Assembly (NCBI GenBank): GCA_003221695.1
Contig: QHSX01000053.1
Coordinates: 1-64,000, forward strand
DNA from: Candidatus Rokuibacteriota bacterium
GTDB lineage: Bacteria > Methylomirabilota > Methylomirabilia > Rokubacteriales > CSP1-6
Reading direction: 5' to 3'
Length of the DNA stretch: 64,000 bases
Shown: positions 36,706 through 37,608 of the stretch, in pieces
Position numbering within the stretch: position 1 is the stretch's first letter
Layout: every line of letters begins with the position of its first letter
Notes under the pieces: generated by a model
What the model was told of the DNA's origin: nothing
The model's database searches: none
The model's input: the letters and a program-made list of their open reading frames with translations, nothing else
Made by a program: the position numbers and the translations under genes

Positions 36706-36922
36706 GATCCGGTTCCCCCTCGGTCCTGGGTCTTCGACCGAAGTGAGAACAGCAAGCGGGGTGCCAGGGCTGGGCCAACCCTAGATCGTGATGGCGCGTG
36801 CGATTTTGAAGACGCCGTCGTGCGGGCCGCGGGGGCGGTGAGAAAGCGCCAGTCCGACCGGCCGAGGATTTACCAGGACGGTCCGCCCGGAGCGCTGGGC
36901 GCTCCGGGCTCGCCACCCCGGA
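36706..36922. other. Intergenic region, 217 bp
   Basis: Between the zinc-ribbon start and the peroxiredoxin stop. It holds a perfect 10-bp hairpin with a 5-base loop at 36885-36909, immediately downstream of the peroxiredoxin. No gene seen in the remainder. Confidence 0.5.
36885..36909 (-). terminator. Hairpin downstream of the selenoperoxiredoxin gene
   Basis: Arms GCCCGGAGCG and CGCTCCGGGC pair perfectly around CTGGG, 13 bases after the peroxiredoxin stop. No T-tract follows on the minus strand, so it may be a Rho-aided or structural 3' end rather than a classical terminator. Confidence 0.45.
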
Positions 36923-37474
36923 TCAGGACGCCGACGCTTTGACCGCCTTGAGCACGTCGTCGGGGTTGAGGAGATCGAGCGGGTTGTCCAGGACCTTCAC
37001 GAATTTCACGGTCCCGGAGGTGTCGACGATGAAGTACGCCCGCTTCGCGTAGCGGTAGATCGGGCTCGCTTCGTTCGTCTCCATCGCGCCCCAGGCGGGC
37101 AGCATCTGGCGCCGAAAGTCGGAGAGGAGGAGTTGCTTGGACGATTGCGCCTTCAGCCAGCCGGCGAGCGCGAGATAGTGATCGGTGCTGACGCCCACGA
37201 CCTGGGCGCCCACGGCCTCGAACTGCGGCAGCGCCGCCTCGAAGCCGTTCAGCTCACGGGTTCAGGTCGGGGTGAACGCCGCGACGAAGGTATAGATCAC
37301 GACGGGACCCTTGGCCGTCAGCTCGGAGAGCTTGACGGGCTTGCCGTCGGGTCCGACCAGGGAGAAGTCGGGCGCCTTCTGCCCGACTTCGAGGGCCCCG
37401 GCGGCGCCGGCCAGAAGCAGGACAGCGAGGCCGCTCAGGACGAAAGCACGAGTCACCGCACGTTTGGTAGGCAT
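36923..37474 (-). CDS. Secreted peroxiredoxin-like selenoprotein (in-frame TGA read as selenocysteine)
   Basis: 183 residues if TGA (37264-37262) is decoded as Sec. ATG at 37474 has GGAGGGAG just upstream. Sec signal peptide (residues 1-28, AGALE). AhpC/TSA domain: VGQKAPDFSLVGPDGKPVKL, VVIYTFVAAFTPT-Sec-TRELNGFE, then GAQVVGVSTDHYLALAGWLK, LLLSDFRRQMLPAWGAM, RAYFIVDTSGTVKFVKV. The TGA falls exactly at the peroxidatic position (Thr-Pro-x-x-Cys/Sec-Thr-x-Glu), and the frame is fully conserved on both sides. The mature protein has no cysteine, so it would be a one-Sec enzyme reducing peroxides with an external thiol. A GC-rich 5-bp hairpin with a 3-base G-starting loop lies 25-37 nt after the TGA. 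Confidence 0.85.
37225..37237 (-). promoter_or_regulatory. Candidate bacterial SECIS hairpin
   Basis: Minus-strand GCGGC-GCT-GCCGC: perfect 5-bp stem, 3-base loop starting with G, located 25-37 nt downstream of the TGA. This fits the loose bacterial SECIS rule (small apical loop with a G in its first two positions, roughly 16-37 nt after the UGA). Short, so supportive rather than decisive. Confidence 0.45.
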
Positions 37475-37608
37475 AGCTCCCTCCATGGCGCTCCGGTTAG
37501 GAACTGCCGAGACGTCGGCATGGTTCCGGTCTCGAGTACTTGACGACTCCGCGGTCTGGGCGCATGTTGCGACTATCTCCGGACTCCGGAGCGGGAGAGA
37601 GGACGTCC

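Follow-up and report, generated by a model that had tools for sequence, protein, structure and literature searches.

The locus and its in-frame UGA codon

We analysed a window of 64,000 nucleotides, which is contig C102 of a Rokubacteria genome of 4.6 Mb with an estimated completeness of 100%; the nearest named relatives of this genome are MAGs of Candidatus Rokuibacteriota. A peroxiredoxin-like protein (Prx) of 183 residues is encoded on its minus strand from 37474 to 36923, and the sole internal TGA of this frame is codon 71, in the context FTPT-U-TRELNGFE. An ORF caller returned only a 96-residue fragment at the locus. The following features were annotated:

36923..37474, minus strand: putative Sec-peroxiredoxin gene, 183 aa plus TGA stop, AhpC/TSA fold, start ATG at 37474-37472
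37262..37264, minus strand: UGA codon, putative Sec, residue 71, peroxidatic-Cys column; Cys in distant homologues, TGA in 53 family members
37212..37248, minus strand: SECIS-like hairpin, +14 to +50 after the UGA; stability excess only here, pair conservation and compensatory changes
37391..37474, minus strand: predicted cleavable signal peptide (MPTKRAVTRAFVLSGLAVLLLAGAAGAL, ~28 residues), found by eye; signal-like N-terminus in nearly all homologues
37480..37484, minus strand: Shine-Dalgarno-like GGAGG upstream of the Prx ATG, found by eye
36886..36908, strand given as ".": perfect 10-bp inverted repeat (CCCGGAGCGC-TGG-GCGCTCCGGG) 3' of the Prx stop, found by eye

The inverted repeat is a possible transcription terminator, although it lacks a T run. 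No RNA gene was found in the window by an Rfam search at the gathering threshold or by ARAGORN. The neighbours of Prx are ABC transporter genes, a gene for a DUF4124-like protein, pyrE, pyrF and carB. This arrangement is shared only with the nearest relative (L018/L119) and thus carries no functional signal, and we rejected a reading of function from the neighbourhood.

The Pfam domain PF00578 (AhpC-TSA) matches the read-through protein across the TGA (residues 30-158, E = 5e-27, 94.7 bits with a cut-off of 26), and a match to Redoxin is found as well. The original prediction, that a TGA interrupts an AhpC/TSA frame exactly at the catalytic Cys, is thus confirmed, with a single TGA at 37262-37264. 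The N-terminus forms a hydrophobic, signal-like segment, and the read-through translation contains no other Cys, as had been predicted for the mature protein. The family members likewise have no Cys in their mature portion; four Cys residues do occur, but these fall in N-terminal extensions or in the signal segment. This leaves Sec as the only candidate redox residue.

Conservation and decoding of the UGA codon

We compared the codon to the corresponding position in homologous genes. In each of the nine public homologues from Rokubacteria, at 63-90% identity, the peroxidatic column holds TGA and the frame is otherwise free of internal stops; more distant homologues mostly have TGC or TGT there. 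Our survey of 95 Methylomirabilota genomes returned a related match in 68 and a full-length close Prx member in 39. After duplicate removal, 45 main-family and 8 sister-clade genes, 53 distinct genes in all, share TGA at the peroxidatic position, and none of them has a further stop. The alignment of homologues proposed with the original prediction thus yields TGA in 53 genes and Cys in distant homologues, and stops elsewhere in close relatives, which had been named as evidence against it, occur at no other position. A Sec codon is required to be an in-frame UGA that aligns with the Cys of homologues and is conserved across species, and this is what we find. Since 45 + 8 homologues share a single TGA in this column, sequence comparison indicates that its position is not due to chance.

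The sister clade (L156-L163) consists of FTPT-UGA-T proteins that are ~40% identical and have a similar hairpin; most also have, ~1 kb upstream, a TlpA-like gene without a stop.

Upstream of the UGA codon, dN/dS has a median of 0.06 over 13 close members, and well downstream of it a median of 0.16. Purifying selection thus acts both before and behind the TGA, and the downstream part is therefore translated and selected. A Cys-peroxiredoxin gene broken by mutation of its Cys codon to TGA would also show a frame interrupted by a stop codon, but the TGA in 53 distinct homologous genes, none of which has another stop, together with the purifying selection and the conserved hairpin, makes this hardly credible; we rejected the pseudogene, which the original prediction had already thought unlikely.

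A hairpin is located downstream of the UGA within the coding sequence. In the window it comprises ~37 nt and folds at -26.2 kcal/mol (z = -2.4 versus dinucleotide shuffles), with equal folding reached in 2% of synonymous-codon redraws. The small GC hairpin at SECIS distance that had been noted earlier is thus present and correctly spaced, but it is larger than was implied. We scanned 45 genes in 45-nt segments compared to synonymous-codon shuffles, and found a stability peak only at +12 nt after the UGA (mean -24.7 versus -17.7 kcal/mol, an excess of -7.0 kcal/mol). Pairing is kept in 451 of 473 pair cells (95%) over 43 distinct sequences, compared to 431 +/- 3 in a control in which codons were shuffled within column and amino acid, a figure in which shared ancestry remains. 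Two-sided changes are found at pair +15/+49 (12 sequences), at +26/+36 (6) and at others. In the published bSECIS model, a stem-loop places its apical loop 16-37 nt after the UGA, with a G in the first two loop positions. The apical loop in the window, GCU, lies 29 nt after the UGA and thus inside this range, and it contains the G of the model. Several family members have CCU instead and break the G rule despite their stem-loop, distance and covariation.

Bacterial selenoproteins require a genome that encodes tRNA-Sec, SelA, SelB and SelD, and the search for these genes proposed with the original prediction recovered all four. tRNA-Sec (69.8 bits, gathering score 47; ARAGORN tRNA-SeC, anticodon tca), selA (588.6 bits, cut-off 267.9) and selB (373.3 bits, cut-off 242.25) adjoin on contig C52, and selD (337 bits, cut-off 125) is found on C35. 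The selD gene (L191/L099, C35:113035-113976, minus strand) itself carries a TGA in frame close to its start (ATCAG-U-ASKM), presumably where known SelD proteins have Sec or Cys, and the SelD of this genome is likely a selenoprotein. Judged from its genes, the organism appears to use selenocysteine broadly. selA and selB are absent from the bins of two high-completeness MAGs that carry the Prx gene (G087 and G060); as selA, selB and tRNA-Sec cluster in the window genome, a missing contig could account for each case.

It is very improbable that the UGA is decoded otherwise, by near-cognate read-through as Trp or Cys or under a reassigned code. The Prx gene itself terminates in TGA, which is thus not globally reassigned, and we rejected such a reassignment; moreover, the genome has a full Sec system, the UGA column is that of a catalytic Cys rather than a Trp, and the hairpin is found at SECIS distance. 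The Sec machinery, the conservation of the TGA and the covarying SECIS-like hairpin together support the selenocysteine originally proposed.

One family member, L155 (G087:C79:22439-22975), has TGT (Cys) in place of TGA. It is located inside the Sec clade (support 96/87) on a long branch, and its hairpin is gone, the sequence folding at only -9.2 kcal/mol at this position. The Thr of the active-site motif is lost as well, leaving a degraded T-x-x-C motif. L155 is still followed by a TGA-containing TlpA-like gene (see below), and its bin, G087, gave no selA or selB hits.

In-frame TGA codons also occur in other genes of this kind. The window genome contains at least two further peroxiredoxin-like genes with one, for example L106 (C79:29715-30164, TPG-U-STC) and L105 (C1:57441-57908, GYW-U-PFC). 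TGA also occupies the peroxidatic position in some more distant peroxiredoxin homologues, from Chloroflexi (L043, AWTPI-U-TSQ; L048, AWTPI-U-SEQ) and from Proteobacteria (L044, AFTGG-U-TKE).

Fold, active site and relatives of the peroxiredoxin

The fold model of Prx has a pLDDT of 88.5, with most of the mature part above 90. The nearest solved structures, by fold and in agreement with a profile search, are the PrxQ/Bcp proteins Sulfolobus Bcp4 (3hjp) and Aeropyrum PrxQ (4gqf). PrxQ/Bcp enzymes use Cys, and many homologues have a second Cys 5 residues past the peroxidatic one, whereas Prx has a putative Sec and no second Cys; it scores 56.1 bits with model NF006960 (cut-off 140). The 1-Cys protein AhpE from Mycobacterium tuberculosis (1xxu) is also near, with a comparable fold and one catalytic residue, a Cys where Prx would have Sec.

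PrxU is presumably a cytoplasmic protein. Like Prx, PrxU from Eubacterium acidaminophilum (NF040737) combines an AhpC/TSA fold with an in-frame UGA and a peroxidatic Sec in T-x-x-U. In contrast to PrxU, Prx has a signal-like N-terminus, no Cys, and Val/Ile for the Pro of PxxxTxxU, and it reaches 34.4 bits with a cut-off of 270. The Prx-SUH thiol peroxidase (NF045827) is likewise a Sec-containing protein of peroxiredoxin fold, to whose model Prx scores 39.4 bits (cut-off 298). A recent review lists Prx-SUH as CxxU and names a 'Peroxiredoxin, TxxU' with the motif PxxxTxxU (PMC13188914); Prx is of the TxxU type. No NCBIfam equivalog thus claims Prx, the PrxU, Prx-SUH and Bcp models all scoring far below their cut-offs.

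Thr68 (U-3), Cys/Sec71 and the second active-site Arg, Arg145, do not vary. At the Pro of PxxxTxxC, which the Cys homologues have, the Rokubacteria family carries Val/Ile, and peroxidase chemistry is therefore not assured. Prx could be a true selenoprotein that is not chiefly a peroxidase, such as an exported protein-thiol oxidant or sensor built on a peroxiredoxin scaffold. The loss of the Pro throughout the family and the missing resolving Cys would fit such a role, but the invariant Thr and Arg and the match of the fold to PrxQ/Bcp and AhpE peroxiredoxins render it unlikely. We take Prx to be a probable one-Sec peroxiredoxin. From its signal-like N-terminus, which recurs in nearly all homologues, we infer that it is exported; its peroxidase activity is likewise presumed from sequence. 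Sec would be the only reactive residue of the peroxide-scavenging protein that this soil bacterium of the uncultured Rokubacteria appears to produce and export.

A TlpA/ResA-like partner and a possible selenoprotein relay

In 30 of the 45 main-family members, Prx is directly followed by a TlpA/ResA-like gene with the site W-x-x-W-UGA-x-x-C, and such tandems also occur in other families of the class. The partner has a signal-like N-terminus, one TGA and no other stop (for example L125, about 2051-2591). Its copy in the window genome (L179, C14:7531-7992, G000) is unlinked to Prx, as are most pairs in the window's clade. The partner is present in 39 of 39 genomes with a full-length Prx versus 3 of 56 others (Fisher 2e-23, ancestry ignored), and two of these three hold Prx fragments. 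The sequence after its UGA folds better than synonymous redraws (-16.6 versus -13.2 +/- 0.5), and the stem, with the loop AGUUG 16 nt after the UGA, fits the published bSECIS model. With the NCBIfam ResA model the partner scores 97 bits, below the cut-off of 170. The nearest kind are the ResA/TlpA-type selenoproteins (UGC-containing TlpA; NF041054, WAxxUGC), which are ResA-like and have an active-site Sec; the partner differs from these in its W-x-x-W-U-x-x-C site, its score (63 bits, cut-off 300) and its association with a Sec-peroxiredoxin.

Sec peroxiredoxins (T-x-x-U) and TlpA-like selenoproteins are each already known. Among selenoprotein operons, the 2026 review includes Prx/SELENOW-like and Prx-like/AhpD-like ones and not a Prx-TlpA pair (PMC13188914). 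A groundwater survey cited therein is reported to predict 63 selenoproteins in one Methylomirabilota MAG, and automated lists may therefore already include Prx-family members. Our literature search, which covered few subscription journals and preprints, returned nothing on Rokubacteria selenoproteins, a Prx-TlpA selenoprotein pair or an exported Cys-free one-Sec Prx. What seems to be new here is a Prx followed by a TlpA/ResA-like W-x-x-W-UGA-x-x-C gene with its own SECIS-like hairpin. This second selenoprotein gene, the loss of the active-site Pro and the Cys copy without a hairpin all go beyond the original prediction.

The sequence data support the conservation of the Sec codon, the recoding hairpin, the Sec machinery, and the linkage and co-occurrence of the partner; Sec incorporation at residue 71 and the path of the electrons we infer from these. 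SelB and tRNA-Sec would read UGA 71 as selenocysteine, helped by the hairpin downstream in the coding sequence, and the signal peptide would export the protein. In a PrxQ/Bcp-like fold, Thr68 and Arg145 would hold the selenolate, which is expected to reduce peroxides and to be oxidised to a selenenic acid. As the mature protein has no resolving Cys, Sec71 would need another molecule for its reduction, and the U-x-x-C TlpA/ResA-like selenoprotein is the best candidate. The anatomy of the protein and the gene linkage suggest these oxidation and reduction steps. TlpA/ResA proteins are recharged by a CcdA/DsbD-type protein, and a membrane protein of this type would probably recharge the partner; C35 encodes a DsbD_TM (CcdA-like) protein (C35:117521-118171), ~3.5 kb from selD.

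The partner may be linked to Prx in another way, for example in cytochrome c or metal-centre maturation, and not reduce it. TlpA/ResA relatives do serve cytochrome c and oxidase maturation, and the pair is mostly unlinked in the window's clade; on the other hand, the tandem recurs across several families of the class with near-perfect co-occurrence, and Prx lacks any internal reductant. We regard such another role as a real possibility with somewhat less than even chances. For the specific proposal of an extracytoplasmic two-selenoprotein relay for peroxide reduction, in which a Cys-free one-Sec Prx and a U-x-x-C TlpA-like reductase are usually encoded in tandem, the chances appear evenly balanced. 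The explanation as a whole, an exported one-Sec peroxiredoxin made by hairpin-aided UGA recoding with a TlpA-like selenoprotein as reductant, we consider probable.

Prx is easily missed, being reduced to a 96-residue fragment by the ORF caller, yet at least 39 of the 95 Methylomirabilota genomes in our survey have it. To use Sec outside the cytoplasm is demanding, as the selenol must survive there and be re-reduced. A Cys-free one-Sec Prx with a U-x-x-C partner would offer a clean, testable system for selenium retention, and the Cys copy L155, which has lost the hairpin, a natural comparison for why selenium is kept. If the relay holds true, selenium would serve both a peroxidase and its reductant in the extracytoplasmic space of an uncultured phylum.
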